Below are positions 5,793 to 23,008 of a stretch of 23,073 bases of DNA, piece after piece. Every line of letters begins with the position of its first letter. Positions within the stretch are counted from its first letter, which is position 1. The translations under genes were made by a program, and so were the position numbers. The notes under the pieces are model-generated. The model made no database searches, was not told where the DNA came from, and saw only the letters and a program-made list of their open reading frames with translations. Origin of the DNA: a virus. The stretch covers positions 1-23,073 of IMG/VR virus record IMGVR_UViG_3300030430_002271; one strand, 5' to 3'.

Positions 5793-5795
5793 ATT

Positions 5796-8945: not shown

Positions 8946-8946
8946 A

Positions 8947-9291
8947 ATGGCAGTAACAAAAACAATAACCAAATGTATACCTTATGAAAACTCATCTAAT
9001 AAAGTAGATAAATGGGATATACAAATGAAGTATGAAAATGATAGTGAAGGCGATAGCACTTACTATACATCTACTTTTAATATCACAGTCAATCAAACAG
9101 ATACAGACGCAAGTGGTAATACAACTACCAATTTTACTTTAAAAGCTAAAAGTAGTTGGACTAACGCTAATTTAGTGGCTATCTGTCCTGTGTCAAAATG
9201 GGACACGATATTTGCAAGTCAAGTAGATAGCGTTATAACTAACCCACCTACAGTTAGTACACCAGATAACGACTTTAACGTACCTAGCTAA
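8947..9291 (+). CDS. Small conserved phage protein, unknown function
   Basis: The 114-residue product is polar and Thr/Asn/Ser-rich with alternating hydrophobic residues, suggesting a small beta-rich domain (TFNITVNQTD, TNFTLKAKSSW). It has no signal peptide and no catalytic motif that I recognise. I recall similar short proteins next to marine phage tail-fibre genes, without known function. The start is well supported: AAGGAG at 8935-8940 lies 6 nt before the ATG, inside the end of the fibre gene, with 1 nt between stop and start. A role in fibre assembly or as a small virion protein is inferred from position only. Confidence 0.6.
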   Translation: MAVTKTITKCIPYENSSNKVDKWDIQMKYENDSEGDSTYYTSTFNITVNQTDTDASGNTTTNFTLKAKSSWTNANLVAICPVSKWDTIFASQVDSVITNPPTVSTPDNDFNVPS

Positions 9292-9293
9292 TA

Positions 9294-10001
9294 ATGAGTG
9301 AACATCCTTTTCAAATACATGGTCTTCCTGCAGTATATGTGTTAGAAACACAAATGCCACAGGCAATGATTAATGATGTTAATGAATACATGGATGAATA
9401 TAGAGAAAGTAAACATAAAAAATCATTAGCAAAAACGTTAGTGGGACAAATACACAAAGGGGAACAATTACTGCTAGACCACAATGATAAAAGATTGCTT
9501 GAATATAATCGTTTTATCTGTAACCTTGGTGCTGAATATATTAATCATTTTGCTAGGGCAGGTAATAATATTCAGTCTGACAAACGAGTAGAGATAGATG
9601 AAACATGGTCAGTGCATAGTTACGATGGTGACTATAATCCTATTCACGACCACGGCACTAAAACTTTGATGGGAATATCTACTACAGCTTGGACTAAAGT
9701 GCCTGTACAAATAGGTGCAAAAGCTACAGCAAACACGCCCACCTATTCACTATATAATGAAAGCGGTCACTCAGACGGCTGCATAGCTTTTCAATACGGA
9801 CAAGTATCAGTAATAGATTCTGATAGATTAAAACCAGCACAATCATTTGTTATGACCCCAGAGGTAGGTAAGCTTTTAGTTTTTCCTTCGTGGTTACAAC
9901 ACATGGTCTATCCCTTCAAAGGTGAAGGCGAAAGACGAACTATTGCATCTAACTTAAATTGTTGGGATGTAGAACAAATATCTGAGGAGATAAAACAATG
10001 A
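9294..10001 (+). CDS. 2-oxoglutarate/Fe(II)-dependent dioxygenase, putative
   Basis: The product (235 aa) fits the 2OG-Fe(II) oxygenase superfamily with a double-stranded beta-helix core. Visible iron ligands are His118 and Asp/His119-120 in NPIHDHG, and His203 in SWLQHMVYPF. Arg214/Arg215 in GEGERRTIASN sit where the 2-oxoglutarate carboxylate is bound. The segment GKLLVFPSWLQH before the distal His is typical of the phage-associated 2OG-FeII_Oxy_5-like group. Such enzymes hydroxylate protein or nucleic-acid targets; the substrate here cannot be read from sequence. It sits just after fibre genes, so modification of a virion or host protein is possible. The ATG follows the previous TAA by 2 nt without a clear Shine-Dalgarno, and its stop overlaps the next ATG (ATGA). 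Confidence 0.75.
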   Translation: MSEHPFQIHGLPAVYVLETQMPQAMINDVNEYMDEYRESKHKKSLAKTLVGQIHKGEQLLLDHNDKRLLEYNRFICNLGAEYINHFARAGNNIQSDKRVEIDETWSVHSYDGDYNPIHDHGTKTLMGISTTAWTKVPVQIGAKATANTPTYSLYNESGHSDGCIAFQYGQVSVIDSDRLKPAQSFVMTPEVGKLLVFPSWLQHMVYPFKGEGERRTIASNLNCWDVEQISEEIKQ

Positions 10002-10219
10002 CAAAAAAAACGGAAGAAGAAAGTGTTGAGGTTGAACTTACGCCACAACAAATAAATATGCAGGCTCACATACAAAGCCTTACATCTAAAATAAATAAAC
10101 ATCAGTTTGAAATAGATGAGCTTATGCCAAGCTTAAATACTTATCAAAAAGCTTTCACTGAAAGCTTAAAACAAAAATCTGATACAATTAACGAGGAGAA
10201 TAAAAATGACAATAATTAA
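9998..10219 (+). CDS. Small coiled-coil protein, unknown function
   Basis: The 73-residue, highly charged protein is predicted to be almost entirely helical. It has heptad-like spacing from about residue 16 to 62 (INMQAHIQSLTSKINKHQFE). There is no membrane segment or signal peptide. It overlaps the oxygenase gene by ATGA, and its own tail carries the GAGGAG ribosome site of the next small gene. No function recognised. Confidence 0.6.
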   Translation: MTKKTEEESVEVELTPQQINMQAHIQSLTSKINKHQFEIDELMPSLNTYQKAFTESLKQKSDTINEENKNDNN

Positions 10220-10373
10220 TATATTTACTTGGATATGCACCATAATAGCCATAGCATCTTTTATAGCTGCTGTAACACCAACACCGCAAGGTGATAAATG
10301 GTTGGCTCAGCTATATAAAATTATAGATTGGTGTGCATTAAACATTTTAAAAGCAAAAGATAAAGGAGAATAA
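10206..10373 (+). CDS. 55-aa small membrane protein, possible holin-like
   Basis: Reading the gap after the coiled-coil gene gives an ATG with GAGGAG at 10193-10198, 7 nt upstream, and a 55-codon frame. The product starts MTIINIFTWICTIIAIASFI, a single hydrophobic helix at about residues 4-22. It is followed by TPTPQGDKWLAQLYKIIDW and a Lys-rich tail. I recall near-identical small proteins in many marine phages (short N-terminal helix, then TPTP..D....LYKIID). Their role is unknown; a holin-like or envelope function is only a guess from the membrane segment. It overlaps the previous gene by 14 nt in another frame, and 1 nt separates its stop from the next ATG. Confidence 0.7.
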   Translation: MTIINIFTWICTIIAIASFIAAVTPTPQGDKWLAQLYKIIDWCALNILKAKDKGE

Positions 10374-10374
10374 T

Positions 10375-10647
10375 ATGAAAAATTTAGTAATTATTTTAAG
10401 CACAGTAATCATCACATCATGTGCAACAGTAGGTGCGGTAATTGATGGTGGTAAAGACTTATCAACAAGTATTATTGACTCTACTGTTAAAACAGCAGGA
10501 AACATCACGACATCTGCTTTAGAAGATGTTAGTGGAGTTATAGAAACTGTTACTGAATCAACAGAAGATGTTGTCGAAAATGTTGTTGATGAAGTTGACC
10601 AACAAACAAATGAACTTGAATCATCTGATGAGGAAGACATAAAATGA
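10375..10647 (+). CDS. Small lipoprotein
   Basis: This 90-residue protein has a classic lipoprotein signal: MKN, a hydrophobic stretch, then the lipobox ITSC with Cys16, followed by Ala at +2, which favours outer-membrane sorting in Gram-negative hosts. The mature part is small, Val/Asp/Glu/Thr-rich and acidic at the C-terminus, with helical heptad character (VIETVTESTEDVVENVVDE). AAGGAG lies upstream of the ATG within the previous gene. Candidates are an outer-membrane spanin-like lipoprotein or an entericidin-like protein. There is no recognised inner-membrane partner, so neither is established. Its stop overlaps the next ATG (ATGA). Confidence 0.7.
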   Translation: MKNLVIILSTVIITSCATVGAVIDGGKDLSTSIIDSTVKTAGNITTSALEDVSGVIETVTESTEDVVENVVDEVDQQTNELESSDEEDIK

Positions 10648-10805
10648 GTTTTTTCAAAAGATTATGGGGCAATCTTACTGGCACAGAAGAAATAAAAGTA
10701 AGAGCAAGAACTAAAAAAGGTAAATTTATTGCTGACGATAAATCCACACCTAACATAAATGAAGCTTGGACTACTAAAAGAGTAAAAAAATCGGCTAAAA
10801 AATAA
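10644..10805 (+). CDS. 53-aa basic protein, unknown function
   Basis: A frame of 53 codons fits exactly between the lipoprotein gene (ATGA overlap) and the nuclease gene (TAATG overlap), which supports it being real. The product begins MSFFKRLWGNLTGTEEIKVR. It is Lys/Arg-rich, with a short amphipathic N-terminal helix and a disordered basic tail ending VKKSAKK. It is small, basic and next to a nuclease, which is compatible with nucleic-acid contact, but there is no motif to prove it. Confidence 0.6.
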   Translation: MSFFKRLWGNLTGTEEIKVRARTKKGKFIADDKSTPNINEAWTTKRVKKSAKK

Positions 10806-11185
10806 TGGCCAAGTCACCAGAAGCCTTTGTTTATAACGCTACATTAGAACGTATTGTAGATGGCGATACTTTTGATTGCTGTCTTGATTTAGGATTTGAC
10901 GTTAAATTACATAAGCAAAGGGTAAGGTTGGCACAAATTGATACTCCCGAATCTCGGACAAGAGATTTAGCAGAAAAAAAATTAGGCTTAGCTGCAAAAG
11001 CTAGACTTGCAGAGTTATGTGTAGGAAAAATTAAAGTAAAATCTTTAGGTAAGGGCAAGTATGGTCGTATATTAGGCATCCCTTACACAGAAGATGGTAA
11101 GGATATATGTCAAATACTTATAGATGAAGGACATGCAGTTTTTTATGATGGAGGCAAAAAAACTAAAGTTTGGGGTGATTACTAA
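10805..11185 (+). CDS. Staphylococcal nuclease-like (TNase/SNase-fold) nuclease
   Basis: The 126-residue protein is a complete small SNase domain. It has ERIVDGDTFD (residues 15-24), RVRLAQIDTPESR (39-51) and KYGRILG (85-91). The catalytic trio corresponds to Arg41, Glu49 and Arg88, with Asp21 and Asp46 as likely calcium ligands, at spacing like the family prototype. There is no signal peptide, so it should act in the cytoplasm of the infected host. A plausible job is degradation of host DNA or RNA, or trimming of replication intermediates. It is joined to both neighbours by TAATG overlaps. Confidence 0.85.
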   Translation: MAKSPEAFVYNATLERIVDGDTFDCCLDLGFDVKLHKQRVRLAQIDTPESRTRDLAEKKLGLAAKARLAELCVGKIKVKSLGKGKYGRILGIPYTEDGKDICQILIDEGHAVFYDGGKKTKVWGDY

Positions 11186-11535
11186 TGGAATCAGCCGTAA
11201 CTATAATTCAAGAAGTTGGTTTTCCTATTGCAGCAGCCATTGGATTAGGCTGGTTTATATATAAGCTTGTTATTCGTATTGTGGACGGCATGGAAACAAA
11301 ACTGGATGCCGTAGATGAAAAGGTTGAAGCTCAAATAAACGCTTTAGAAGAACGATTAGGCACTAAACTTGACTCACAACATGGTATTTTAGTAGCATTG
11401 ATAGACAGAGTACGCAGTTTAGATAATGAAATTATTAGGCAAGATACTTTGATAAAAACTATTCTTGGCGTACCACAACTTATAAATAGTAATAAAATTG
11501 CTAAGGCGGATAGAGATGACCAAAGGAAAGACTGA
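11185..11535 (+). CDS. Membrane-anchored coiled-coil protein
   Basis: The 116-residue protein has one hydrophobic helix at about residues 13-33 (FPIAAAIGLGWFIYKLVIRI). A long charged coiled coil follows from about 36 to 90 (VDEKVEAQINALEERLGTKL). The order resembles small holin-accessory proteins (UviB/BhlA type). The positive charges lie on the C-terminal side of the helix, which suggests an N-out/C-in topology. That argues against an i-spanin. It starts by TAATG with the nuclease gene. Its last 20 nt overlap the csgF start, so it is translationally linked to the curli module. Function is uncertain. Confidence 0.6.
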   Translation: MESAVTIIQEVGFPIAAAIGLGWFIYKLVIRIVDGMETKLDAVDEKVEAQINALEERLGTKLDSQHGILVALIDRVRSLDNEIIRQDTLIKTILGVPQLINSNKIAKADRDDQRKD

Positions 11536-12016
11536 TTACGATAGATACGTAGAAGCAAAAATAGCTGGTTGGGCATGTTTAATAGCTTTAATTATGATAG
11601 CTTATGCAGCTGCAACAAGCGTCAATGCAGATACTATAACTCATAAATTTAAGTCACCATCATTTAGTGGTGTTGGCACTTCAAGTCATTATCTTACCAT
11701 TGAAAATCAACAGTACACTCGTAAGCTTACTATTAAAGAAGAAATAAAAGCTTTACAAGATGAGATAAAAAGAGAAAAAGAGAACTCAACTCTTGCGAGA
11801 TTTATGCGCAATCTTGAATCAAGAGTATATGCTGAGTTGAGCAGACAGTTAGTTAATAATTTGTTTGGTGAAACACCGCAAAGCGAAGGTGTCATTACTT
11901 TAGAGGGGAACACAATTGAATATACGAGTGATGGCGTAACATTAACCCTAAAAATAACCGAAGCAGATGGCACAGTCACCGAAATCGTCATACCTATTGG
12001 CACTTTTACTTTCTAG
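11516..12016 (+). CDS. csgF: CsgF-like curli assembly protein
   Basis: From the ATG at 11516 the product is 166 aa; a TTG at 11498 is also possible, but the ATG has AAGGCGGA upstream. Residues 17-38 form an export signal with an unusually long charged n-region and likely cleavage after VNA. The mature start THKFKSPSFSG mirrors the segment of E. coli CsgF that plugs into the CsgG pore (TFQFRNPNFGG). Next comes a helix (residues 95-117, RFMRNLESRVYAELSRQLV) and a C-terminal beta part (NTIEYTSDGVTLTLKITEAD) matching CsgF order. CsgF sits in the outer-membrane CsgG channel and helps anchor curli. It overlaps the preceding gene by 20 nt and csgG by 50 nt. The phage context is the odd feature. Confidence 0.85.
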   Translation: MTKGKTDYDRYVEAKIAGWACLIALIMIAYAAATSVNADTITHKFKSPSFSGVGTSSHYLTIENQQYTRKLTIKEEIKALQDEIKREKENSTLARFMRNLESRVYAELSRQLVNNLFGETPQSEGVITLEGNTIEYTSDGVTLTLKITEADGTVTEIVIPIGTFTF

Positions 12017-12800
12017 TTGCTCAATAACTAATCAACTAGAAGATACTTATGAACAAAGGTTTTCAAAAGACATAGCAACCATACAAGACCTACAATCTGT
12101 AGAACTTAAAAATGTGCCTATCCCTGAAGTAAGTCCTGTAGTAGCTGTCTATCCACTATCTTTTACAGACCAAACAGGACAAAGAAAAAGCAACAGTGAG
12201 TTTGCTTTGTTCAGCACAGCAATTACTCAACAACCCAATGCTTTGCTTATCAGAGCTTTGAAGCATGCAGGTGATGGCAAGTTTTTTAGAGTGGTTGAAA
12301 GAGTTGGGTTAGATAACCTTACTAAAGAAAGACAGCTTATAAGGTCTGCAAGAGAGCAGTCAGCTAACGAGGAAGAAAAGAAAAAAGCACTTAGACCTTT
12401 GTTGTTCGCAGGTATTTTAATAGAAGGTGCTGTTATATCTTACGAGGCAAACCTAGAAAGCGGTGGTTCTGGTGCGCGATATCTTGGCGTAGGCAAATCA
12501 GTTATTTATAGAGAGGATAATATAACCATAAGTATGCGCATGGTTTCTGTTGCAACAGGTGAGGTTTTGTTAGAAGTTTTAAGTCAAAAAACTATTTTTA
12601 GTTATGGTAAATCAGAAGATGTGTTTCGCTTTGTAGAAGCCGATAGCGAGTTAGTAGAAATAGAACTTGGTAATGCAAGGAACGAATCATCTACGATAGC
12701 CTTAATGAAAGCCATAGAAGGTGCTGTGCTTGAAATAGTTAATACAGGTTACGATAGAGGTTTTTGGATTTTACAAAATAAAAACGAAGGAGTAGAATAA
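11967..12800 (+). CDS. csgG: CsgG-like outer-membrane curli secretion channel lipoprotein
   Basis: The 277-residue length equals E. coli CsgG. A lipoprotein signal ends in LLSSC with Cys18. The body follows CsgG closely: PVVAVYPLSFTDQTGQRK (57-74), RVVERVGLDNLTKERQLIR (108-126), EGAVISYEANLESGGSGARY (153-172), RMVSVATGEV (191-200) and DRGFWILQNK (263-272). CsgG forms a nonameric outer-membrane pore that exports unfolded curli subunits. The pore-constriction Phe is kept (Phe82, equal to Phe56 of mature E. coli CsgG). The neighbouring Asn is Leu81, and there is no Tyr at the matching position. A stop codon at 11955 makes the ATG at 11967 the first possible ATG. The whole signal peptide is encoded inside csgF. 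Confidence 0.92.
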   Translation: MAQSPKSSYLLALLLSSCSITNQLEDTYEQRFSKDIATIQDLQSVELKNVPIPEVSPVVAVYPLSFTDQTGQRKSNSEFALFSTAITQQPNALLIRALKHAGDGKFFRVVERVGLDNLTKERQLIRSAREQSANEEEKKKALRPLLFAGILIEGAVISYEANLESGGSGARYLGVGKSVIYREDNITISMRMVSVATGEVLLEVLSQKTIFSYGKSEDVFRFVEADSELVEIELGNARNESSTIALMKAIEGAVLEIVNTGYDRGFWILQNKNEGVE

Positions 12801-12804
12801 AATT

Positions 12805-13530
12805 ATGAAAAATAAACTAATAAGCATATTAGCTACATGTTCTCTTGTGGCTTTCGCGGCTGATAATGAAATATACGTAGACCAATCTGGCACAGGTGCT
12901 AACATAGACTTAGAACAGCTAGGTATATCTAATATAATTGGTGGTCTAAATAGCACAGCAGGTAATTTAACTGCATTTGATTTAGACGGTAACAGCATGA
13001 CCTTAGACATTAATATGATAGGTGCAACGAACAAGTTTTTAGGAGATATCTTTGCAGATAACTTTACAGGATTCTATGAATTTGATGGTGGTACAAATTC
13101 TTTTACCATACAGGTAGACCCAACTGATACTTACAGTGCAGATGGTTCTAATCAATATGTGGATGTTACAGGTAGTGGTAATACCTTTACATTAAATCAA
13201 GGCACTACTGCCATGGCTTCAAATTTAGACCTAGATTGGATAATTAATGGTTCAAACAATACCATTACATCAAATATAAACATTGATGGTGCGACTCAGT
13301 ATTTAGATATAGACGGCTCTGATAATAGTCTTACTTACACTGGTACGGGTGTTACAGCATCAGCAGGTGGATATTTTTATCTTGACCACACAGGAGGCTC
13401 TAGGACTTTTAATGTACAACAGCTATCAACACAGGACAACGATTGGCTTAAAGTTATTTCGGTTTCTGGCACTGCTGCTTCTACTGTTTGTATTATTCAA
13501 AACGACCAAGGTACAAGCACAAGCTGTTGA
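12805..13530 (+). CDS. Secreted curlin-like protein, putative CsgG substrate
   Basis: The 241-residue product has a Sec signal peptide (MKNKLISILATCSLVAFA, cleavage before ADNE). Curlin-type motifs follow: VDQSGTGAN at about residue 25 and LEQLGISN at about 36, i.e. Q.G..N spacing with alternating hydrophobics. The rest is Asn/Gly/Asp/Thr-rich with degenerate hairpin repeats (GSGNTFTLNQG, GSNNTITSNIN, GSDNSLTYTG), as expected for a beta-solenoid or amyloid. Two Cys lie near the C-terminus. An AAGGAG sits 12 nt upstream of the ATG, a long spacing. Being directly after csgG, it is the natural candidate for export through that pore. Repeats are less regular than in CsgA/CsgB, so I do not name it. 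Its last 119 nt also encode the FecR protein start. Confidence 0.75.
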   Translation: MKNKLISILATCSLVAFAADNEIYVDQSGTGANIDLEQLGISNIIGGLNSTAGNLTAFDLDGNSMTLDINMIGATNKFLGDIFADNFTGFYEFDGGTNSFTIQVDPTDTYSADGSNQYVDVTGSGNTFTLNQGTTAMASNLDLDWIINGSNNTITSNINIDGATQYLDIDGSDNSLTYTGTGVTASAGGYFYLDHTGGSRTFNVQQLSTQDNDWLKVISVSGTAASTVCIIQNDQGTSTSC

Positions 13531-14557
13531 TATAGGTGACATATCTGAGCTAAACGGTACAGCACAAATTGTCCGGGATAAGCCATACGATGCAAATCTA
13601 AAGTTTGCTATTCAAAGCAATGATGAGGCCATAACCAAAGATGGTCGCATGGCTATAAAATTTTTAGATGATTCTGTAGTTAAACTTACAGAATGGTCGG
13701 AACTTGTCATAGACTCATACATATTTGACCCAGACCCTAGTAAATCTAAAATGGCTTTAACATTTGGTTTAGGCACAGCAAGGTTTATCACAGGTAATCT
13801 TAATCGTATAGACAAACAGAATATACAACTAAAAACACCTACAGCAAATATAGCAATACGTGGCACCGACTTTACAGCAACAGTTGATGAACTAGGTAGA
13901 AGTCTTATAATTCTTTTGCCTGATGCACTAGGACTATCTAGTGGTGAGATAGAAGTGGTTACAGCCATGGGTACAGTTATACTTAATAAACCTTATGAAG
14001 CTACTACAGTTAGCGTGTTTGAGTCTGCTCCAACCAAGCCTGTAATTTTAGATTTAACCCTAGACCTAATAGACAACATGTTGATTGTAACCCCACCTAA
14101 ACAAGAGGTTTTAGCTGAAGAAGAAACTACAAGTACACAAACAGATAATTTATTAGATTTTAATGACTTAGATGTAGATTATTTAGCAGAAGATTATTTA
14201 AAAGAGGATAGTTTAGAATTCACAGAACTAGATATAAATTATTTGGACGTAAATTATTTAGAGGACTTATTGCAAGTTGTTGATGCTTTAGCAGTGGATG
14301 AAGATGAAGAACCCCTTGCACCAGCAAGCGTTACTAGAATTGCTGGTACAAATTTTGGGCAAGATGAAGAAACTCAAATCACGACTTTAATTACTGGTGG
14401 CGTATTAAGTATGCGTAGAAAAGTTAATGAAAGTGTTAGATTAGATTTAGATGGAGGCACGGCATACACCGTAATTCTTATACAAGATGGCGTTTCAAAC
14501 ACAATTAAAATAAACGGCGGTAGTGACTCTATAATAAAAATTACACAATCTAATTAA
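13412..14557 (+). CDS. FecR-domain secreted protein with C-terminal curlin-like segment
   Basis: The 381-residue product from ATG 13412 has a strong signal peptide (LALLLLLFVLF, cleavage after VQAQA at residue 38). The FecR domain spans about 42-205, with its signature TPTANIAIRGTDF at 142-154. An acidic linker with a DYL/NYL repeat follows (about 250-290). The final 35 residues (YTVILIQDGVSNTIKINGG) have curlin-like Q.G..N spacing. FecR domains act in the periplasm as signal relays and also occur beside CHASE2 cyclases, as here. An in-frame GTG at 13349 exists but would give a poor signal. An AGGAGG at 13392-13397 lies 14 nt upstream, long but usable. The first 119 nt overlap the curlin-like gene in another frame. 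Confidence 0.8.
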   Translation: MYNSYQHRTTIGLKLFRFLALLLLLFVLFKTTKVQAQAVDIGDISELNGTAQIVRDKPYDANLKFAIQSNDEAITKDGRMAIKFLDDSVVKLTEWSELVIDSYIFDPDPSKSKMALTFGLGTARFITGNLNRIDKQNIQLKTPTANIAIRGTDFTATVDELGRSLIILLPDALGLSSGEIEVVTAMGTVILNKPYEATTVSVFESAPTKPVILDLTLDLIDNMLIVTPPKQEVLAEEETTSTQTDNLLDFNDLDVDYLAEDYLKEDSLEFTELDINYLDVNYLEDLLQVVDALAVDEDEEPLAPASVTRIAGTNFGQDEETQITTLITGGVLSMRRKVNESVRLDLDGGTAYTVILIQDGVSNTIKINGGSDSIIKITQSN

Positions 14558-14570
14558 GTGTAGAAAAGTG

Positions 14571-14598
14571 TTGACATCTGTTATACAATCCTTATAAT
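14571..14598 (+). promoter_or_regulatory. Consensus sigma70-type promoter
   Basis: TTGACA at 14571-14576 and TATAAT at 14593-14598 are both perfect consensus boxes separated by 16 nt, in one of the few intergenic gaps of the window. Transcription would begin near 14605. It would drive the small gene, the cyclase and possibly the lysis genes with host RNA polymerase. I saw no comparable promoter elsewhere in the window. Confidence 0.8.
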
Positions 14599-14604
14599 TA
14601 AATT

Positions 14605-14719
14605 TGGACAGCAACCATTTATACAATCTGATGGTCGAAGGATTGCTATACAAAGTTGTTTGATGTTGGTTGCAGTCCCTCCATTTTACATCAAACAACA
14701 CGGCCACAAAGGAGACACT
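14605..14719 (+). promoter_or_regulatory. Structured leader with hairpins and potential pseudoknot
   Basis: This about 115-nt leader lies between the promoter and the ATG at 14720. It contains (a) a 9-bp stem with one bulged base, 14620-14628 with 14641-14650; (b) a perfect 12-bp inverted repeat, 14655-14666 (GTTGTTTGATGT) with 14688-14699; (c) a 7-bp complement between 14611-14617 (GCAACCA) and 14667-14673 (TGGTTGC), the latter in the loop of (b), so a pseudoknot is possible. The loop also has CCCTCC, which could weakly pair with the AAAGGAG ribosome site at 14708-14714. A cis-regulatory RNA or a small RNA are both possible; no known class recognised. Confidence 0.55.
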
Positions 14720-14986
14720 ATGAAAAAAATACCACAACACCCAGATGCAAAAAAACCACGAAACCTAGTGCGGTTTTACAACGACCCAACATTAGCAAGA
14801 AAGCTATCTCATGGCTATCATCATTTTGAGATTGGCGATATTGGTTGGAAATGGGTTAAAATAAGACCAGCCTATTTAAGCACACATAGAACAAATCATT
14901 GGACTAAAATTAAAAGGTCTAAATGGGATGACATACAACAGCTTAAATCATTTACGGTTTTAGAGGAGAAAGAATCAAAAAGCTAA
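14720..14986 (+). CDS. Small basic protein, unknown function
   Basis: From ATG 14720, with AAAGGAG ending 5 nt upstream, the product is 88 aa; an in-frame ATG at 14660 lies inside the structured leader and is less likely. The protein is basic and rich in Lys, Arg, His and Trp (KKPRNLVRFYNDPTLARKLS, then GDIGWKWVKIRPAYLS). It has no signal peptide, membrane segment or motif I recognise. It is the first gene behind the promoter and overlaps the inferred cyclase start. Its GAGGAG-containing tail supplies the cyclase ribosome site. Cytoplasmic location and a regulatory or nucleic-acid role are guesses from charge and position. Confidence 0.6.
   Translation: MKKIPQHPDAKKPRNLVRFYNDPTLARKLSHGYHHFEIGDIGWKWVKIRPAYLSTHRTNHWTKIKRSKWDDIQQLKSFTVLEEKESKS
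14963..14968 (+). promoter_or_regulatory. Shine-Dalgarno deciding a non-ATG cyclase start
   Basis: GAGGAG is followed after 5 nt by ATC (14974). The frame then reads KKLILLILPILALPL, a typical N-terminal membrane helix. No ATG or GTG exists between the upstream in-frame stop (TAA, 14944) and the helix. The site therefore points to an ATC start. Confidence 0.55.
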
Positions 14987-16725
14987 TACTACTAATACTA
15001 CCCATATTAGCTCTACCTTTGGTGTTTCAATCTACACCAACAGAAATACTTAAACTTAAAACCTTTGATGCCTTTGTAAAAGAACAACCTGAATCAGGTA
15101 ACTTTGTAATATTAAATATTACAGAAGAAGACGTAGCCAACATGGGTGGTTGGCCGTTTCCTAGAAGAACACTTGCACAAATACAAATAGATTTAATTAA
15201 CGAGGGTGCTGCTGGTATAGGATGGGTGGTTGCCTACCCACAAGCTGACCGCATGGGCGGTGATGAAGTTTTTGCACAAACACTTGGATATATACCATCT
15301 GTATTAGCTATGTTTGAAGATGGCAGTGGCAAATATCCCAAACCAACAGGCACAGTTATTATGGGCGATAAAGCACAAGGAATCGTATCGCAAGGTGTGG
15401 TGCAAAATGTCGATATTTTGGCAAATAATACGTTACAAGGTTTAGCGATAGCACCCACAGACGTTGACCAACTTGTGCGTAGAATACCTTTGTTAGTAAG
15501 CACACCTGATAATGAGTGGATTCCTAGTTTTGGCACACAAATATATAAAGCCTTGTTTGATGTCAAAACTTACATTATAAAAACTAATGATAATGGTGTT
15601 GAGGAAATATCAATTAGAGGAATACCACCCGTTAAAACAGATAGCTTAGGTCGTAAGTGGATAAGTTGGGTAGATACACCACAAACCACTTTATCTGAAA
15701 TGAATGTAAGAGGTAAGGTAGTATTTATAGGTGTTACTGCTAAGGGAGTGATGCCGCAAGTAGCGACAAGTGTTGGTTTATTAGAACCACATAAAATACA
15801 AGCTGCTCTTGCAGAATCCATATTAATACAAGATTCGCCTTACATACCTGATTGGTCTTTGGCTGCAGAAATGGGTATTTTTGCACTATCAGTTACAGCT
15901 ACATGGTTTTTAATACATTTGTTAGGCATAACATTAGGCGTATTAGGTTATGTGATTTTTACATTGGCGATAGCTTATGGCGGTTATTGGCTAATACAAG
16001 ATGGATTATTAATAGACGTAACGTGGACAATAATTGCAAGTTTTATTACGGGTGCTATAGCTTTTTATTTAAGGTTTAGACAACAGTTTAAATTACGCTT
16101 ACAAATTAAAAAACAGTTTGAGCATTACTTAGACCCAAGACAAGTAAAAAGATTACAAGACAACCCAAGCTTACTAAAGTTAGGCGGAGAAAGACGTGTT
16201 TGCACCTATCTTTTTACAGATGTACGTGGCTTTACTTCTTTGTCAGAAAAACTAGAACCAGAAGAAGTTACAGATATAATGAACAAAGCTTTGACAGTGC
16301 AAGTTGATTGTGTGCAAAAAAATGGTGGCATGGTAGATAAATTTATAGGCGATGCATGTATGGCCATATTTAATGCGCCACTAGACTTAGACAACCATGA
16401 AGAACTTGCTGTAAAAACTGCAATAGAAATGCAAAAAGCTATAAAGAAACTCAATAAGGAACTGCCACATAAAATAGCTATTGGCGTGGGCGTTAATACA
16501 GGTGAAGCTGTGATAGCCAACGTAGGTAGCGACACTCGGTTCGACTATTCAGCGATTGGCGATGCTGTAAACACAGCAGCCAGACTAGAATCTGCAACAA
16601 AAGAAGTTGGCGTAGATATACTTATTGGAGAAAATACTGCACAAAGTGTTAATTATAAGTTAAAATCATTGAAGCCAATAAAGGTCAAGGGCAAAACGAA
16701 AGCTCTTAAAATTTTTACTGTATAA
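14974..16725 (+). CDS. CHASE2-domain class III adenylate/guanylate cyclase
   Basis: Taking ATC 14974 as start, the protein is 583 aa; the alternative TTG 15019 (568 aa) would delete the N-terminal helix. Order: membrane helix 2-17; CHASE2 periplasmic sensor about 20-285 (KLKTFDAFV, then ILNITEEDVANMGGWPFPR); three membrane helices about 295-365; linker QFEHYLDPRQVKRL; cyclase domain about 405-583. Catalytic residues are present: metal-binding Asp416 (FTDVRGFT) and Asp460 (FIGDACMAIF), base-specifying Lys456, and transition-state Asn533 and Arg537 (AVNTAARLE). The second specificity position is Ser526 (DYSAIGD), where adenylate cyclases usually have Thr or Asp. It should make cAMP (possibly cGMP) in the host cytoplasm in response to an envelope signal. 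It sits next to the FecR-domain gene, a pairing also known in bacteria. Confidence 0.88.
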   Translation: MKKLILLILPILALPLVFQSTPTEILKLKTFDAFVKEQPESGNFVILNITEEDVANMGGWPFPRRTLAQIQIDLINEGAAGIGWVVAYPQADRMGGDEVFAQTLGYIPSVLAMFEDGSGKYPKPTGTVIMGDKAQGIVSQGVVQNVDILANNTLQGLAIAPTDVDQLVRRIPLLVSTPDNEWIPSFGTQIYKALFDVKTYIIKTNDNGVEEISIRGIPPVKTDSLGRKWISWVDTPQTTLSEMNVRGKVVFIGVTAKGVMPQVATSVGLLEPHKIQAALAESILIQDSPYIPDWSLAAEMGIFALSVTATWFLIHLLGITLGVLGYVIFTLAIAYGGYWLIQDGLLIDVTWTIIASFITGAIAFYLRFRQQFKLRLQIKKQFEHYLDPRQVKRLQDNPSLLKLGGERRVCTYLFTDVRGFTSLSEKLEPEEVTDIMNKALTVQVDCVQKNGGMVDKFIGDACMAIFNAPLDLDNHEELAVKTAIEMQKAIKKLNKELPHKIAIGVGVNTGEAVIANVGSDTRFDYSAIGDAVNTAARLESATKEVGVDILIGENTAQSVNYKLKSLKPIKVKGKTKALKIFTV

Positions 16726-16730
16726 AAATT

Positions 16731-16946
16731 ATGGTTAATAAAAAAATGACAGTCAATGATGTTGCAGAAAGATTAACAAAACTTGAAACAATATCACACG
16801 AACGTTGGAAAACTGCCTTCAACGAGTTTTCTGACATAAAACAAGAAATAACTCTTATCAATTCAACAATTAAAGCAACGACCTTTGGTGTTTTTGGTTT
16901 TCTTGGTGCAATAGGTATAGCAGTATTAACGAGTATATTAATATGA
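16731..16946 (+). CDS. XhlA-like small membrane protein, probable lysis accessory
   Basis: The 71-residue product has an N-terminal amphipathic coiled-coil part (about 5-45, VAERLTKLETISHERWKTAF) and one C-terminal membrane helix (about 50-71, TFGVFGFLGAIGIAVLTSIL). That order and size match haemolysin XhlA-type proteins, which help holins and endolysins cause lysis. The start is ATG 16731; ATG 16746 is an alternative and neither has a clear Shine-Dalgarno. It lies 5 nt after the cyclase and overlaps the holin gene by ATGA, giving a compact lysis cassette. Confidence 0.65.
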   Translation: MVNKKMTVNDVAERLTKLETISHERWKTAFNEFSDIKQEITLINSTIKATTFGVFGFLGAIGIAVLTSILI

Positions 16947-17419
16947 AAGGATTATTTAAAAATATAATAGGAGCAGTTGCTCCCACATTAGGAACTGCCA
17001 TAGGCGGACCTATGGGTGGTATGGCTGCAAACATGATAGCAGACGTTCTTGGTGTGCCTAATGACCAAAAATCAATAGAAACAGCAATACAAAACGCTAC
17101 ACCAGAACAAATGTTAGAACTAAAAAAAGCAGAGCAAGCGTTTGAAGTTCAAATGAAAGAACTTGATGTAGATGTGTTCAAACTAGAAACACAAGATAAA
17201 CAAAACGCTAGAGGTATTTTTAGTAAAGATTGGACAGCGCGTATAATAGGTTTATTTACTATTGGTGGTTTTTTAGGTTACATATTTTTAGTAACCCTAC
17301 AACCACCTGAACAAAACAGCGAAGCACTTATAAATCTAGTGCTTGGTTATCTTGGAGGATTAGCTAGTGCCATTATTTCGTTTTATTTCGGAGCATCTCA
17401 CTCACCAGAAAAAGAATAA
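16943..17419 (+). CDS. Holin of the GTA 3TM family
   Basis: The 158-residue product fits the 3TM holin family first described for gene-transfer-agent release. It has a Gly/Ala-rich N-terminal hydrophobic part (AVAPTLGTAIGGPMGGMAAN, 11-30), a charged helical middle (ELKKAEQAFEVQMKELDVDV), a KDWTARIIG motif at about 95-103, and two C-terminal membrane helices at about 101-118 and 128-150. Holins open the inner membrane so that endolysin reaches the cell wall. It starts in an ATGA overlap with the XhlA-like gene and is followed 4 nt later by the endolysin gene. No separate spanin pair is recognised. Confidence 0.8.
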   Translation: MKGLFKNIIGAVAPTLGTAIGGPMGGMAANMIADVLGVPNDQKSIETAIQNATPEQMLELKKAEQAFEVQMKELDVDVFKLETQDKQNARGIFSKDWTARIIGLFTIGGFLGYIFLVTLQPPEQNSEALINLVLGYLGGLASAIISFYFGASHSPEKE

Positions 17420-17423
17420 AAAA

Positions 17424-17903
17424 ATGAAAACATCCAAAGATGGTATTAATCTTATAAAACACTTTGAGGGATGTCCCATGGAAAACGGAATGGTTGTTTC
17501 TTACAGATGCCCAGCAAACAAGCCAACCATAGGCTTTGGGAGCCTAAAGCTTATAGATGGCAGTCCTGTACAAGACGGTATGACAATTACTAAAAAAGAA
17601 GCAGAGGATTTATTGGCTCACGAACTTAAAGAATACGAAGGTTATATAAATGATATGGTTACAGTTGATTTAAAACAAAATGAGTTTGACGCACTTGTAT
17701 CATGGGTATTTAATCTAGGTCCTACAAACTTAAAAAATTCTACGCTACTAAAAGTTTTAAATAGCACACATGTAGATTGGGCAGATATACCCTATCAAAT
17801 ACAAAGGTGGAATAAGGTCAATGGTGTGCCTAACGAAGGCCTAAAAAAAAGAAGAAAAGCTGAGGCATTATTGTTCCAAGGACAAGAATGGGGTAAAGTC
17901 TAA
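17424..17903 (+). CDS. Endolysin, GH24 lysozyme (muramidase)
   Basis: From ATG 17424 the enzyme is 159 aa, close to the usual size for phage GH24 lysozymes. The GTG at 17367 would add an unneeded 19-residue extension over the holin gene. Catalytic residues are Glu15 (HFEGC), Cys29 (YRCPANKPTIGFG) and Thr35. The Glu-x8+-Cys-x5-Thr arrangement, with Cys where T4 lysozyme has Asp20, is also found in lambdoid phage endolysins. The FNLGPTNLKNSTLLKVLN region and the C-terminal RRKAEALLF complete the fold. No signal peptide is seen, so it depends on the holin for export. It hydrolyses peptidoglycan at the end of infection. Confidence 0.92.
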   Translation: MKTSKDGINLIKHFEGCPMENGMVVSYRCPANKPTIGFGSLKLIDGSPVQDGMTITKKEAEDLLAHELKEYEGYINDMVTVDLKQNEFDALVSWVFNLGPTNLKNSTLLKVLNSTHVDWADIPYQIQRWNKVNGVPNEGLKKRRKAEALLFQGQEWGKV

Positions 17904-17960
17904 CTGACATGCTCATTAGCGGATGTTCACATATCTCCTCTCTCCGATGTAGTATGTCAG
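17904..17960 (+). promoter_or_regulatory. Long imperfect hairpin directly after the endolysin stop
   Basis: The outer stem is 10 bp, 17904-17913 (CTGACATGCT) with 17951-17960 (AGTATGTCAG), including one G-T pair. It continues through a bulge to CAT/ATG (17914-17916 with 17947-17949) and CGGA/TCCG (17920-17923 with 17943-17946). The loop is 19 nt. It begins at the first base after the stop codon. A weak T-run follows only 9 nt later, so it is not a textbook terminator. An RNA processing or packaging element is also possible. Confidence 0.55.
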
Positions 17961-18001
17961 GAGAGTCAATTTTGTCCTTTAAATATACGCGTTGGCTCTC
18001 C
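17960..18001 (+). promoter_or_regulatory. Second hairpin, ending 5 nt before the terminase start codon
   Basis: GGAGAGTCAA (17960-17969) pairs with TTGGCTCTCC (17992-18001) over 10 bp with one wobble. The loop is AT-rich, 22 nt. The GGAGAG could instead pair with CTCTCC at 17940-17945 inside the first hairpin, so the two structures may be mutually exclusive. The terminase ATG has no Shine-Dalgarno, as the 15 nt before it are pyrimidine-rich. Translation of TerL may therefore depend on this structure or on coupling. Confidence 0.5.
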
Positions 18002-18006
18002 ACCTT

Positions 18007-19491
18007 ATGATAGATTTAAACAAAATAAAGTCATTCGATGCTTTGTCTAGGGATGAACAAGTAGAAGCTTTAACCTTAATAGATAAATGGAAAAATCTAA
18101 ACGCTAGGGATAAATGTAAATCTGATTTTTTAGAGTTTGTAAAACATCAATGGGATGGCTTTATTATGGGCAGACATCATAAAGTTTTAGCCAAAAAGCT
18201 TAATCGTATTGCACAAGGCAAATGTAAAAGACTTATGGTTATGTTGCCACCTAGACACACCAAATCAGAATTTGCATCAACATACTTTCCTGCATGGATG
18301 ATGGGGTTAAATCCAAGTTTAAAAATAATACAAGCAACACACACGGCTGAATTAGCTGTTAGATTTGGTAGAAGGGTACGTAACATAATAGACAGTGAGG
18401 AATACCAAACCATATTTCCTGACATAAATTTATCAGGTGATAATAAGTCTGCTGGTAGATGGACTACAGATGATGGTGGAGAAGCTTTCTATTCAGGTGT
18501 AGGTGGTGCTATTACAGGACGTGGTGCTGATTTGTTAATTATAGATGACCCTCATTCAGAACAAGATGCAATGTCGCCGACTGCAATGGATGCAGCTTGG
18601 GAGTGGTACACAAGTGGACCACGCCAAAGATTGCAGCCCGGCGGCACCATCGTTTTGGTCATGACACGTTGGAGTACAAAAGACTTAGCAGGTAGATTAC
18701 TAAAAAGACAGTCTGAAACACATGCAGACCAATGGGAAGTTGTGGAGTTTCCAGCCATCATGCCTGAATCAGAAGAACCGCTATGGAGTGAGTTTTGGAA
18801 AAAAGAAGAACTATTATCGGTAAAAGCATCTTTGCCCATAAGTAAATGGAACGCACAATGGATGCAAAATCCAACCGCAGAGAGTGGTTCTATAGTTAAA
18901 AGAGAATGGTGGCAAACTTGGGAGAATGAAGCGATACCAAGTTGTCAGTGTATTGTGCAAAGCTACGATACAGCTTTTAGCGCAAAAGAAACAGCAGACT
19001 ATTCAGCTATAACCACGTGGGGTATTTTTGACCCTGAGGATGGTAGTGAACACGCAATAATATTATTAGATGCTAGTAGACATAGAGTAGACTTTCCACA
19101 ACTCAAAAACATCGCTTTAGAAGAATATAAGTATTGGGAGCCAGATATAGTCTTAATAGAGGCAAAAGCTAGTGGTACACCTTTAACACAAGAACTTAGA
19201 AAGATAGGCATACCTGTACAAGCCTATTCACCAAGTAGAGGACAAGATAAGGTTGCTAGAATGAACTCTATTGCACCTATGTTTGAAAGTGGTATGGTAT
19301 ATGCTACAGAAGACGCTTTTGCAGAAGAAGTAATAGAAGAGTTAGCTGCTTTTCCTTTTGGAGAAAACGATGACTTTTGTGACTCTACTACCATGGCTTT
19401 AATGCGAATAAGACAAGGCGGTTTAGTGGAGTTAGATAGTGACTATCAAGAAGACATGCAAGTAGATAGAACAGCTTTGTCATATTATTAA
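18007..19491 (+). CDS. terL: Terminase large subunit (packaging ATPase/nuclease)
   Basis: Starting at ATG 18007 (a TTG at 17992 lies in hairpin stem DNA) the protein is 494 aa. ATPase motifs: Walker A MLPPRHTKSE (residues 79-88, Lys86) and Walker B LLIIDDPH with Asp180/Asp181. The C-terminal nuclease has metal ligands Asp321 (SYDTAFS), Glu385 (VLIEAKASG) and Asp459 (DDFCDSTTMA). It drives DNA translocation into the prohead and cuts the concatemer. The usual Gly in the Walker A of this group (PPRHGKS) is Thr here. No small terminase subunit is recognised nearby. It is followed 2 nt later by a small basic-protein gene and then the portal. Confidence 0.93.
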   Translation: MIDLNKIKSFDALSRDEQVEALTLIDKWKNLNARDKCKSDFLEFVKHQWDGFIMGRHHKVLAKKLNRIAQGKCKRLMVMLPPRHTKSEFASTYFPAWMMGLNPSLKIIQATHTAELAVRFGRRVRNIIDSEEYQTIFPDINLSGDNKSAGRWTTDDGGEAFYSGVGGAITGRGADLLIIDDPHSEQDAMSPTAMDAAWEWYTSGPRQRLQPGGTIVLVMTRWSTKDLAGRLLKRQSETHADQWEVVEFPAIMPESEEPLWSEFWKKEELLSVKASLPISKWNAQWMQNPTAESGSIVKREWWQTWENEAIPSCQCIVQSYDTAFSAKETADYSAITTWGIFDPEDGSEHAIILLDASRHRVDFPQLKNIALEEYKYWEPDIVLIEAKASGTPLTQELRKIGIPVQAYSPSRGQDKVARMNSIAPMFESGMVYATEDAFAEEVIEELAAFPFGENDDFCDSTTMALMRIRQGGLVELDSDYQEDMQVDRTALSYY

Positions 19492-19493
19492 TT

Positions 19494-19802
19494 ATGGTAA
19501 GAAAAAAAAGAAAAGACCCAATAAAAGGCACAGGCAAAAAACCAAAGGGTAGTGGTAGACGTTTATATACAGACGAAAACCCTAAAGATACCGTAAGAAT
19601 AAAGTTTGCAACACAAGCCGATGCTAGAGCTACTGTAAAAAAAGTGAAAAATATAAAAAAACCTTTTGCTAGAAAAATACAAATACTAACAGTGGGTGAA
19701 CAAAGAGCTAAAGTTATGGGAAAAAAAGCCATAGCTAATATATTTAAAAAAGGTAAAAATGCTGTAAGGAGATTGCATGGTCGTAAAACTATCAACACTT
19801 AA
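19494..19802 (+). CDS. Basic conserved phage protein with GSGRRLYTDENPKDT motif
   Basis: The 102-residue product is strongly basic (repeated KK/RK). It contains a conserved-looking core: GTGKKPKGSGRRLYTDENPK, then KFATQADARATVKKVK and QILTVGEQRAKVMGKK. I recall this core from several marine phage proteins and believe it matches a DUF family, but I cannot confirm the number. No catalytic residues are known to me. Placed between terminase and portal, it could be a DNA-binding or packaging accessory protein, possibly taking the place of a small terminase. That is a guess. It overlaps the next small gene by 26 nt. Confidence 0.65.
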   Translation: MVRKKRKDPIKGTGKKPKGSGRRLYTDENPKDTVRIKFATQADARATVKKVKNIKKPFARKIQILTVGEQRAKVMGKKAIANIFKKGKNAVRRLHGRKTINT

Positions 19803-19932
19803 AAAAAAGATAAAGGCTGGTAAAAAACTTGGATTTAGTGAAAAAGCATCAGCAAAAGCACGTGGCTTGATTGCAAGAACAGGTGGTAAAAATAAAGGCA
19901 AGAAGGTAAAATCAAAAAAATATAAGAGATAA
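19777..19932 (+). CDS. 51-aa highly basic protein
   Basis: The frame opens at ATG 19777 with AAGGAG at 19766-19771, 5 nt upstream, inside the previous gene. It reads MVVKLSTLKKKIKAGKKLGF and ends KGKKVKSKKYKR. Over a third of its residues are Lys/Arg, with a probable short helix (SEKASAKARGLIARTGG). The portal ATG follows 1 nt after its stop. The near-ideal ribosome site and tight spacing support a real gene. Nucleic-acid binding is likely from charge, with no specific family recognised. Confidence 0.65.
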   Translation: MVVKLSTLKKKIKAGKKLGFSEKASAKARGLIARTGGKNKGKKVKSKKYKR

Positions 19933-19933
19933 T

Positions 19934-22435
19934 ATGGTTACAGAAAGAAAACTAGGCACTGAAGATAACCCTGATATAAAAGACCAAACTAAGTCTGTTA
20001 GTGTGCCTGTCGATGATATAAATATAGAAGCACCACCAAGAAGCTTTGACGATGAAATGTTTGATGCTTTACAAATTAGCATTAGTGAAGATGAAATAGT
20101 TTTTGACGAAGCAACAGAACAAGAACCACCACAAATACCGTTTGATGCAAATTTAGTAGAATTTTTAGATGACGATATATTAGGCAGTATTTCTTCTAAA
20201 TTATTGTACGCCATAGAAAACGACAAAGAATCACGCAAAGAATGGGAAAAAACTTATACAGACGGATTAAAGTATCTTGGTATGCGTTTTGATGAGCAAA
20301 GAAGTCAACCTTTTGAAGGTTCAAGTGGTGTTATTCATCCAATATTGTCAGAGGCGGTAACACAATTTCAGGCACAAGCTTACAAAGAATTGTTACCTGC
20401 GCAAGGTCCTGTAAAAACACAAGTCATAGGTCAAAGGGACTCAAACACTGAAATGCAGGCAGAAAGAGTAGGCGAGTTTATGAACTATTACATTATGAAC
20501 GAGATGCCTGAGTATGACCCTGATTTAGACCAATTATTGTTTTATTTGCCTTTATCAGGCAGTGCATTTAAAAAGGTTTACTATGATGCAACAAAAGGAA
20601 GGCCTGTATCTAAGTTTGTGCCTGCTGAAGACTTGTTAGTACCATATAACGCTACAGACATACTTTCAGCCGAAAGAGTCACACACGTAGTTTCTATGAG
20701 TAACAACGAAGTTAGAAAAATGCAACTATCTGGTTTTTATGCTGATATAGACTTACTTGACCCTGAAAACATAAGTAGAGATGAAATAGAGCAAGAGGTA
20801 GACAAAATACAAGGAATACAACCAGATTACGGAGAAGATGAACAACGAAGATTGTACGAAATACATACTGTTGCGGACATTGAAGGCTTTGAAGACACCA
20901 ATGAGATGGGTGAACAAACTGGGTTAAAACTACCTTATATCATAACTATAGACGAGTCATCACAAAAAGTTTTATCTATACGTAGAAATTATGAGCCGAC
21001 AGATGTACTAAGAAACAAAATAAATTACTTTGTACAATACAAATTTTTACCCGGATTGGGTTTCTATGGCTTAGGATTGTCACACATGATAGGCGGTCTA
21101 TCTAAAGCTTCTACATCTTTGCTTAGACAACTTATAGATGCTGGCACATTAAGTAACCTACCAGCAGGTTTTAAAGCTAGAGGAATTAGAATTAGAGATG
21201 AAGCCTCACCCTTACAACCGGGTGAGTTTAGAGATGTTGATGCACCGGGTGGTGCGTTAAGAGACTCTTTGATGCCGTTACCTTACAAAGAGCCTAGCAA
21301 TGTATTATTTCAATTACTTGGCTTATTAGTTGATTCAGGCAAAAGATTTGCTGCAATAGCAGATATGAATATAGGTGATGCAAATGCTGCTATGCCAGTT
21401 GGGACAACTGTTGCTTTATTAGAAAAAGGCACAAAGGTTATGAGTGCAATACATAAAAGATTGCACTATTCACAAAAAAATGAGTTTCAAATACTTGCTA
21501 GAGTATTTCAAGAGTTTTTGCCGCCTGTATACCCGTATGAAACAGGTAGTGGTGTTAGAGAAGTAAAGATAGAAGACTTTGATAATAGGGTGGATGTCAT
21601 ACCTGTATCTGACCCTAATATTTTTTCTATGAGCCAAAGAGTAATCATGGCACAAGAACTATTAACAATGGTGCAATCTAATCCACAGCTACACGGTCCA
21701 CAAGGCATCTATGAAGCTTACAGAAGAATGTACGCAGCTTTAGGTGTAGACAATATAGACTCGTTACTTATGCCGCCAGCAGATACAACTCCTAAACCTG
21801 TGGATGCAGGTATTGAAAACAGTGGCTTGCTACAAGGTATACCACAACAAGCGTTTCCTGAGCAAAATCATGAGGCACATGTAGAAGCACATAAAAGTTT
21901 ATTTTTGACACAAGCTGTTATTACAAACCCACAATTACAATCCATAATAATTTCACACGTGATGCAACATTTACAATTTATGGCTAATCAAATGGCAGAA
22001 CAACAGTTACCACCTGACGTGCAACAACAAATACAAGCGTCACTAGAACAAGCAACACAGTTAGACCCACAATCACAAATGGCTCTACAACAACAAATAC
22101 AGACTATTATTGAAAGCTTTAGCTCACCAATATTAGCTCAGTTGTCTGCTGAGTTTTTAGCTTCTGTACAACCACCTCAACAAGAAGACCCACTTGTTGC
22201 AATTAGACAACAAGAACTAGGATTGCGAGATAAAGAAATAGAATTGAAAAATCAACAGTTTATGGCTAAAGAAGAGCAAGATGCCATGGAGAGTGCAGCA
22301 GAATTGCAAATACAACGAAACAAAGCAGACCAACAAGCTGCTATAGGCAATGAGAAAAATGACATTGCTAAACAAAGATTGCAACAGCAAGCTGAATTAA
22401 AATTAATAGACCTACAAGCGAGGATGAACAAATGA
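19934..22435 (+). CDS. Portal protein
   Basis: At 833 aa this is a large portal of the kind seen in podovirus-like phages with P22-type portals. It follows the terminase, as portals usually do. Visible portal-like features: SRKEWEKTYTDGLKYLGMRF (about 97-116), FEGSSGVIHPILSEAVTQFQ near 125-145, and SAFKKVYYDATKGRPVSKFV near 213-232. Others are FLPGLGFYGLGLSHMIGGLS near 373-392 and LLEKGTKVMSAIHKRLHYSQ near 495-514. The last about 150 residues are a Gln-rich coiled coil (RDKEIELKNQQFMAKEEQDA). Portals form a dodecameric ring at one capsid vertex through which DNA passes. Its stop overlaps the next gene (ATGA). Confidence 0.85.
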   Translation: MVTERKLGTEDNPDIKDQTKSVSVPVDDINIEAPPRSFDDEMFDALQISISEDEIVFDEATEQEPPQIPFDANLVEFLDDDILGSISSKLLYAIENDKESRKEWEKTYTDGLKYLGMRFDEQRSQPFEGSSGVIHPILSEAVTQFQAQAYKELLPAQGPVKTQVIGQRDSNTEMQAERVGEFMNYYIMNEMPEYDPDLDQLLFYLPLSGSAFKKVYYDATKGRPVSKFVPAEDLLVPYNATDILSAERVTHVVSMSNNEVRKMQLSGFYADIDLLDPENISRDEIEQEVDKIQGIQPDYGEDEQRRLYEIHTVADIEGFEDTNEMGEQTGLKLPYIITIDESSQKVLSIRRNYEPTDVLRNKINYFVQYKFLPGLGFYGLGLSHMIGGLSKASTSLLRQLIDAGTLSNLPAGFKARGIRIRDEASPLQPGEFRDVDAPGGALRDSLMPLPYKEPSNVLFQLLGLLVDSGKRFAAIADMNIGDANAAMPVGTTVALLEKGTKVMSAIHKRLHYSQKNEFQILARVFQEFLPPVYPYETGSGVREVKIEDFDNRVDVIPVSDPNIFSMSQRVIMAQELLTMVQSNPQLHGPQGIYEAYRRMYAALGVDNIDSLLMPPADTTPKPVDAGIENSGLLQGIPQQAFPEQNHEAHVEAHKSLFLTQAVITNPQLQSIIISHVMQHLQFMANQMAEQQLPPDVQQQIQASLEQATQLDPQSQMALQQQIQTIIESFSSPILAQLSAEFLASVQPPQQEDPLVAIRQQELGLRDKEIELKNQQFMAKEEQDAMESAAELQIQRNKADQQAAIGNEKNDIAKQRLQQQAELKLIDLQARMNK

Positions 22436-22629
22436 CAAGCTCAATAAATGAAAAAATTAAACAACAAATAAAAGAGAAAAAATTGCAAGAAAAACAGCAA
22501 GTTTCTAATACAGAAGTTGCAAGTGTAGAGGTTAAGCCAGCTACAAAAACTAAAGCAAAAAAAACTACTGTTAAGAAAAAAACAGTAAAGAAAAAAACAG
22601 TTTCTAAGAAAAAAACTACAAAAAAATAA
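22432..22629 (+). CDS. Lysine-rich, histone H1 tail-like small protein
   Basis: The 65-residue product has a short helix (MTSSINEKIKQQIKEKKLQE) and then a tail of near-tandem KKKTV units, so nearly half the residues are Lys. It looks like a histone H1 C-terminal tail and should bind DNA or RNA by charge. It starts in an ATGA overlap with the portal gene and is followed by another small basic protein with a good ribosome site. Its role could be DNA condensation during packaging or as an internal head protein; neither is proven. Confidence 0.65.
   Translation: MTSSINEKIKQQIKEKKLQEKQQVSNTEVASVEVKPATKTKAKKTTVKKKTVKKKTVSKKKTTKK
22564..22625 (+). repeat. AAGAAAAAAACAGT-type short tandem repeats
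   Basis: About four near-copies of a 15-bp unit (AAGAAAAAAACAGTx) encode the KKKTV units of the Lys-rich protein. The copies at about 22573-22617 are the most regular. The unit is a multiple of 3, so slippage keeps the frame. Confidence 0.7.
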
Positions 22630-22639
22630 GGAGTAGAAA

Positions 22640-22804
22640 ATGAAAGCAAAAACTTCCATAACTATAAAAGGTCAAGGAAGCATTGCCTTATCACAACCTC
22701 AAAAAGTAAAGGTTGATACAGCACACAAACCCGGTTACGGAAAGGGTAAAAGCAGAGGTAAAGGTGCTGCGTTAAGAGGCAATAATTTCAGTGGCGTGTT
22801 CTAA
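22640..22804 (+). CDS. 54-aa small basic protein
   Basis: ATG 22640 has AAGGAG at 22628-22633, 6 nt upstream. The 54-codon frame reads MKAKTSITIKGQGSIALSQP, then a basic Gly-rich stretch (GYGKGKSRGKGAALRG) and the end NNFSGVF. I recall similar short Gly/Lys-rich proteins near phage head genes; the function is unknown. The next gene starts 3 nt after its stop. Confidence 0.65.
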   Translation: MKAKTSITIKGQGSIALSQPQKVKVDTAHKPGYGKGKSRGKGAALRGNNFSGVF

Positions 22805-22807
22805 ACT

Positions 22808-23008
22808 ATGGATATGTATGATTTTATTCATGCAATTCGTAAAGATTTGAATGAGAGAGAGGCACAAATAGTAACCATACTTACGTCAGGTGGCGTTAAA
22901 GACATGGAAAATTATCAGTTTTTGATGGGCGAAATATCATCATTATCCTATATTCATGATAAGATAAAAGAACACTTACAAAGTAAAGGAGATATAGATG
23001 ACAGTTGA
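22808..23008 (+). CDS. Small acidic helical protein, unknown function
   Basis: The 66-residue product is helical and mildly acidic (MYDFIHAIRKDLNEREAQIV, then SSLSYIHDKIKEHLQ). It has no signal peptide or recognised catalytic motif. Its tail overlaps the next gene by 11 nt and carries that gene's AAAGGAG ribosome site. It is probably a head-assembly accessory by position between portal and the presumed scaffold or capsid genes. Confidence 0.6.
   Translation: MDMYDFIHAIRKDLNEREAQIVTILTSGGVKDMENYQFLMGEISSLSYIHDKIKEHLQSKGDIDDS

Follow-up and report, generated by a model that had tools for sequence, protein, structure and literature searches.

A pseudoknot-capable leader between a sigma70-type promoter and a small-gene cassette in a pelagiphage genome with a curli module

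The DNA analyzed here (the window) is the 23,073-nt stretch covering positions 1 to 23,073 of IMG/VR record IMGVR_UViG_3300030430_002271. The window encodes CsgF, CsgG, a FecR-like protein, a CHASE2 cyclase, and lysozyme. This gene content agrees with the curli (T8SS) module of HTVC023P-type pelagiphages, in which the cyclase often lies after FecR (PMC9599517). The terminase shares 57–61% identity with its counterparts in phage 023Pt_psg01 and in the Pelagibacter phages HTVC027P and HTVC023P. Judged from these similarities, the genome is that of an HTVC023P-type pelagiphage with a curli module, and the terminase relatives point to SAR11 as the host. A term search of the text of PMC9599517 returned no mention of promoters or riboswitches, and a DNA search of the phage collection gave no matches. 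Positions 5796–8945 of the window encode a 1049-aa tail-spike or virion protein (PHROG match) with many degenerate NTAVG/NTTGS-type repeats.

All features described below are on the plus strand. The 162 nt between the FecR stop (14557) and the ATG at 14720 constitute the largest gap in the window according to the ORF table, in agreement with the initial annotation, in which about 160 noncoding bases were regarded as notable. TTGACA (14571–14576), a 16-nt spacer, and TATAAT (14593–14598) form a sigma70-type promoter (14571–14598) in this gap. The promoter had been described as perfect, and it does match the consensus at 12 of 12 positions, being the sole such match in the scanned region (5000–23073). 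Weak promoter-like matches are not above chance (46 observed versus 58.7 expected). Since their frequency is chance-like, support for the promoter comes from the perfect match, the sole long gap, and conservation, as relatives carry GTGTAGAAAAGTGTTGAC[AT]TCTGTT..TATAAT after the FecR stop. A real promoter at this position is well supported.

The promoter is followed by a 114-nt leader (14606–14719), the first gene (14720–14986), the CHASE2-adenylate/guanylate cyclase gene (14974–16725; Pfam CHASE2 and Guanylate_cyc, start assigned by alignment), and later the lysozyme gene. The first gene encodes an 88-aa basic protein (pI 10.1) of a family found in 39 IMG/VR loci. The protein has no Pfam or PHROG match, its predicted fold is uninformative (pLDDT 50.6), and the best match in a profile search against the PDB has an E of only 0.42. 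The family is rich in Trp, Lys, and Arg and also occurs behind other promoters, with different neighbors, in other marine phage contigs (L023–L036; L-numbers denote loci or contigs).

The leader can form a three-stem H-type pseudoknot, in which two stems, S1 and S2, cross each other and a hairpin, P2, is placed in loop 1. S1 is formed by GGAC-A-GCAACCA (14606–14617) and TGGTTGC-A-GTCC (14667–14678), giving 11 bp with one A.A mismatch. A complement between the upstream strand and the hairpin loop had been noted in the initial annotation; the complementarity holds, but its length is not the 7 bp given there. S2 is a perfect 12-bp helix between GTTGTTTGATGT (14655–14666) and ACATCAAACAAC (14688–14699), and P2 (14620–14650) is a 9-bp stem in which 14620–14628 pair with 14641–14650 and C14646 is bulged, both as originally described. 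P2 alone contributes −3.1 kcal/mol. The linker between S1 and S2 is zero, as the 5′ strand of S2 ends at 14666 and the 3′ strand of S1, abutting it, starts at 14667. Loop 3 contains CTCC (14679–14682). The distance from the end of the structure to the ATG at 14720 is approximately 20 nt, and the Shine-Dalgarno sequence AAGGAG (14709–14714) is located there. The P2 loop may also form a kissing contact, between 14629–14637 and 14701–14708 (8 pairs, one G-U, one bulged A), though the contact is weak, with a p of about 0.04 in shuffled sequences.

The crossing stems were scored by the summed stacking of the best crossing stem pair. The score of the leader, −40.2 kcal/mol, was reached by none of 40,000 dinucleotide shuffles (mean −19.4, best −39.3 kcal/mol) and ranks first among 806 scanning windows of this genome on both strands. 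No stronger crossing pair turned up among 395 kb from relatives; apart from the leader, the best score there is −37.7 kcal/mol, at a different locus. This second-strongest candidate in the relatives lies near 2492 (+) of L056 and has stems of 14 and 8 bp. The nested-only fold of the leader misses the pseudoknot and is unremarkable (z = −1.2). The pseudoknot is estimated at about −33 kcal/mol, an approximate sum with a fixed penalty, versus −26.9 kcal/mol for the best nested fold. The capacity of the leader to form a pseudoknot is well supported, and it can almost certainly fold into an unusually stable one.

The position of the Shine-Dalgarno sequence in the two folds should be noted. In the best nested fold, CUCC (14679–14682) pairs with GGAG (14711–14714) to hide the Shine-Dalgarno sequence. 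When S2 is forced in the folding, most of GGAG is freer. Because of this difference, the pseudoknot is predicted to be the open state, though the CUCC:GGAG pairing, at just four base pairs, could have arisen by chance.

We compared the locus among the best 80 FecR relatives in IMG/VR and added further loci via the small protein and promoter/leader patterns. The cyclase starts at the FecR stop with zero gap in 60 of the 80 relatives. The promoter cassette with a short leader is found in 15, the long leader in three, and a degenerate cassette in one; the sequence of the last relative, unclassified by the script, resembles the direct FecR-cyclase arrangement. Most relatives have the cyclase without any leader. 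Judged by this comparison, the window lineage has a promoter and moron cassette inserted between FecR and the cyclase. The FecR-cyclase junction is a hot spot, with varied small genes behind a related promoter (L004, L097, L102, L108, L168, and L171). The promoter is conserved across cassettes and the stretch from the promoter to the first gene is variable. Near 3391 of L118, directly before the cyclase, lies what remains of a degenerated promoter cassette (AAAGTGTAGAAAGGTGTTAC), suggesting cassette loss.

Outside the window, the long leader is present in five contigs, L091 (=L002), L005, L006, L007, and L042/L097 (=L037). The six leader-bearing contigs including the window fall into two haplotype groups, and independent comparison is possible only between these groups because L002/L091 hardly differs from the window (99.99% identity). 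The two flanks of L004 match the window at 97% and 96% identity, yet L004 combines a short leader with an additional gene. In L108/L008, the same small gene is preceded by a short leader, and in L097 the long leader stands in front of another first gene; the long leader is therefore used before two different first genes. Given these differing combinations of leader and gene, the leader has either been gained or been exchanged locally as a segment, and it travels with the promoter. The initial annotation had proposed control of the cyclase and lysis operon. This is partly right, as the first gene is followed by the cyclase and later by the lysozyme, but the leader goes with the promoter and is not tied to these genes.

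Among the six copies of 14606–14719, only one site is variable, 14718, which is beside the start codon and outside the helices. With so little variation, the copies offer no covariation in support of the helices, the check suggested in the initial annotation. Between the window and L005, L006, L007, and L097, there are no changes over 14592–14717. In the same comparison, the FecR DNA differs at up to about 40 positions per 100 nt, and the cyclase and small-gene DNA shows about 1–14 differences per 100 nt where homologous. The unchanged leader amid diverged flanks suggests constraint. Instead, one short segment could have been exchanged recently where recombination is taking place, which would account for the near-invariance and give the same picture as constraint, since there are only six contigs in two haplotype groups. 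The leader might even have no RNA function, being recently acquired DNA spread by recombination with neutral complementarity generated in a template-switch event. The presence of the leader in only six contigs, its dispensability in near-identical relatives, and its location at a hot spot for gene gain and loss are consistent with such an origin. However, the crossing, abutting helices are far beyond shuffled sequences and do not resemble a plain inverted repeat, the insert fits into the interval from the predicted +1 to the Shine-Dalgarno sequence, and only one base differs despite the diverged flanks, making a neutral origin improbable. A DNA element, for example a site for recombination or protein binding that marks the hot spot of cassettes, would be in keeping with inverted repeats at a place where cassettes turn over. 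We give this idea almost no credence, as the repeats are absent from the other cassettes at the FecR-cyclase site and the crossing arms are unable to form a cruciform both at once.

The Rfam search suggested in the initial annotation yielded no credible family for the leader. At the curated threshold, the covariance models gave no match in the whole window, and a permissive search of the leader up to E=10 gave only chance-level matches. Outside the six contigs, pieces of the leader matched viral contigs only in coding sequence or at chance level. ACATCAAACAACACGG also occurs in a few unrelated leaders (L228/L231–233, L252, and L254) over 16–19 nt with no shared structure seen. A gapped pattern had 33 matches in genome contigs, which were judged to be chance by taxonomy as they were spread over unrelated taxa. 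A covariance model of S1 and P2 was run against 46 contigs, MW574966, and 385 alphaproteobacterial genomes; strong scores were obtained only for known copies, though the genome search had no positive control and its empty result is weak. Weak matches of this model in L223 and L243 are coding sequence. An HDV-like ribozyme was rejected on helix order and on the lack of an Rfam match. The collections and genomes searched yielded no diverged homologue of the leader.

Judged from sequence, the leader is a real and highly improbable pseudoknot-capable element of narrow distribution and is most likely a cis-acting 5′-UTR module. We tentatively place this pseudoknotted module between the strong sigma70 promoter and the moron cassette, where it would bury the 5′ end and leave the ribosome site open; in this full form the proposal falls just short of being probable. 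S1 opens with a G at 14606, and the base before it, 14605, is the seventh past the −10 box. Judged by this spacing, the predicted start of transcription is about 14605–14606, and the mRNA would therefore begin with the S1 helix, the first nucleotides from around G14606 being S1 itself. As the RNA emerges, P2 would fold, S1 would close, and S2 would then form adjoining S1, producing a rod 11 + 12 base pairs long in which the 5′ end is buried. Stem-loops at the 5′ terminus are among the known mRNA stabilizers, such structures slowing decay, and the pyrophosphohydrolase RppH needs unpaired 5′ nucleotides (PMC3997798). The buried end would likewise shield the message from 5′-end-dependent decay. 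The pseudoknot would also hold the loop-3 CUCC off the Shine-Dalgarno GGAG to keep the ribosome site open, while with S2 unformed the nested fold with its CUCC:GGAG pairing would lower translation. The leader in this model probably protects or tunes its message, and the term riboregulator used in the initial annotation is plausible. A point against the cis-acting module is that the near-identical L004 (96–97% in the flanks) does with a short leader.

The leader would resemble the 5′-terminal stem-loop stabilizers of ompA and papA (PMC3997798) in that its structure is predicted to extend from the 5′ end of the transcript. It differs from them in being a pseudoknot and not a simple stem-loop, and its stabilizing effect is a prediction of the model. 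The strong promoter and the compact, stable fold from the predicted +1 would also suit a separate small RNA acting in trans on host or phage messages, as the initial annotation had considered. This is very unlikely, as a plus-strand terminator-like site is absent between the promoter and the ORF (14600–14720), the leader runs continuously into the Shine-Dalgarno sequence and a conserved ORF, and the same promoter drives short mRNA leaders in related cassettes.

The hiding of the Shine-Dalgarno sequence in the alternative fold also raises the possibility of a sensor, in which translation would be switched by the binding of a small molecule, or of a protein such as a phage RNA-binding protein or the 88-aa product, to the pseudoknot, as in a riboswitch or in autoregulation of the T4 gene 32 type. 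A three-stem architecture with an extra hairpin is common to the fluoride and preQ1-II riboswitches (PMC11262651), the leader is near-invariant including its loops, and the first gene product is strongly basic. Contrarily, there is no candidate ligand, Rfam gives nothing beyond chance even at E<10, and autoregulation by the 88-aa protein is at odds with the other first gene in L097 and with the occurrence of the family elsewhere without the leader. We consider a sensor rather unlikely. Unlike the preQ1-II and fluoride riboswitches, the pelagiphage leader matches no Rfam family, its Shine-Dalgarno sequence is outside the pseudoknot, and its gene context suggests no ligand. A still more doubtful conjecture is that the leader represents a new class of three-stem pseudoknot regulators in pelagiphage mRNAs that sense an infection signal (a metabolite or protein) and gate whichever accessory gene sits behind the shared promoter.

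By analogy, the closest phage precedent is the T4 gene 32 leader. In T4-type phages, this mRNA leader contains a pseudoknot serving as an autogenous translational operator, and a review in 2010 regarded it as perhaps the sole viral pseudoknot in translational autoregulation (PMC3014915). The gene 32 leaders of T4, T2, and RB69 (PMC3014915) share with the present leader a phage 5′-UTR H-type pseudoknot with coaxially abutting helices upstream of the ribosome site of the first gene, here at the level of sequence prediction. In the gene 32 leader, the pseudoknot is far upstream of the start codon of one gene and is followed by an unstructured A+U-rich stretch, whereas the pelagiphage leader has a third hairpin in loop 1, ends about 20 nt before the ATG, and serves two first genes. 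Positions 14700–14719 read ACGGCCACAAAGGAGACACT and are not A+U-rich unstructured repeats, and the downstream gene does not encode a recognizable single-strand-binding repressor; it belongs to the 88-aa family, which matches nothing in Pfam or PHROG, and another gene takes this place in L097. Because these two defining features fail, we did not assign the leader to the gene 32 type.

The glutamine riboswitch of Melnitz-type marine phages (PMC9004378) is similar in being a structured regulatory RNA of phages that infect streamlined marine bacteria and have curli genes as well. It is associated with a tmRNA gene and belongs to a known class, whereas the pelagiphage leader matches no class. Regulation in SAR11 is thought to lean on RNA elements (PMC7029224), and few structured RNAs are known in pelagiphages. 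A stable pseudoknot leader tied to a promoter and serving different genes would be a portable expression module.

The start codon of the cyclase should also be noted. The cyclase probably starts at ATC 14974, which is preceded by a Shine-Dalgarno sequence, GAGGAG, inside the end of the small gene (window 14963–14985; MKKLIL... in relatives). No obvious slippery heptamer for frameshifting was seen. Every one of L002, L004–L008, L010, L016, L022, L049, L098–L100, and L102 uses ATT or ATC as the cyclase start codon, and ATG is used in L018, L021, L043, L171, and the loci with the cyclase directly after FecR. Conservation of an AUU/AUC start would point to throttled or coupled translation.
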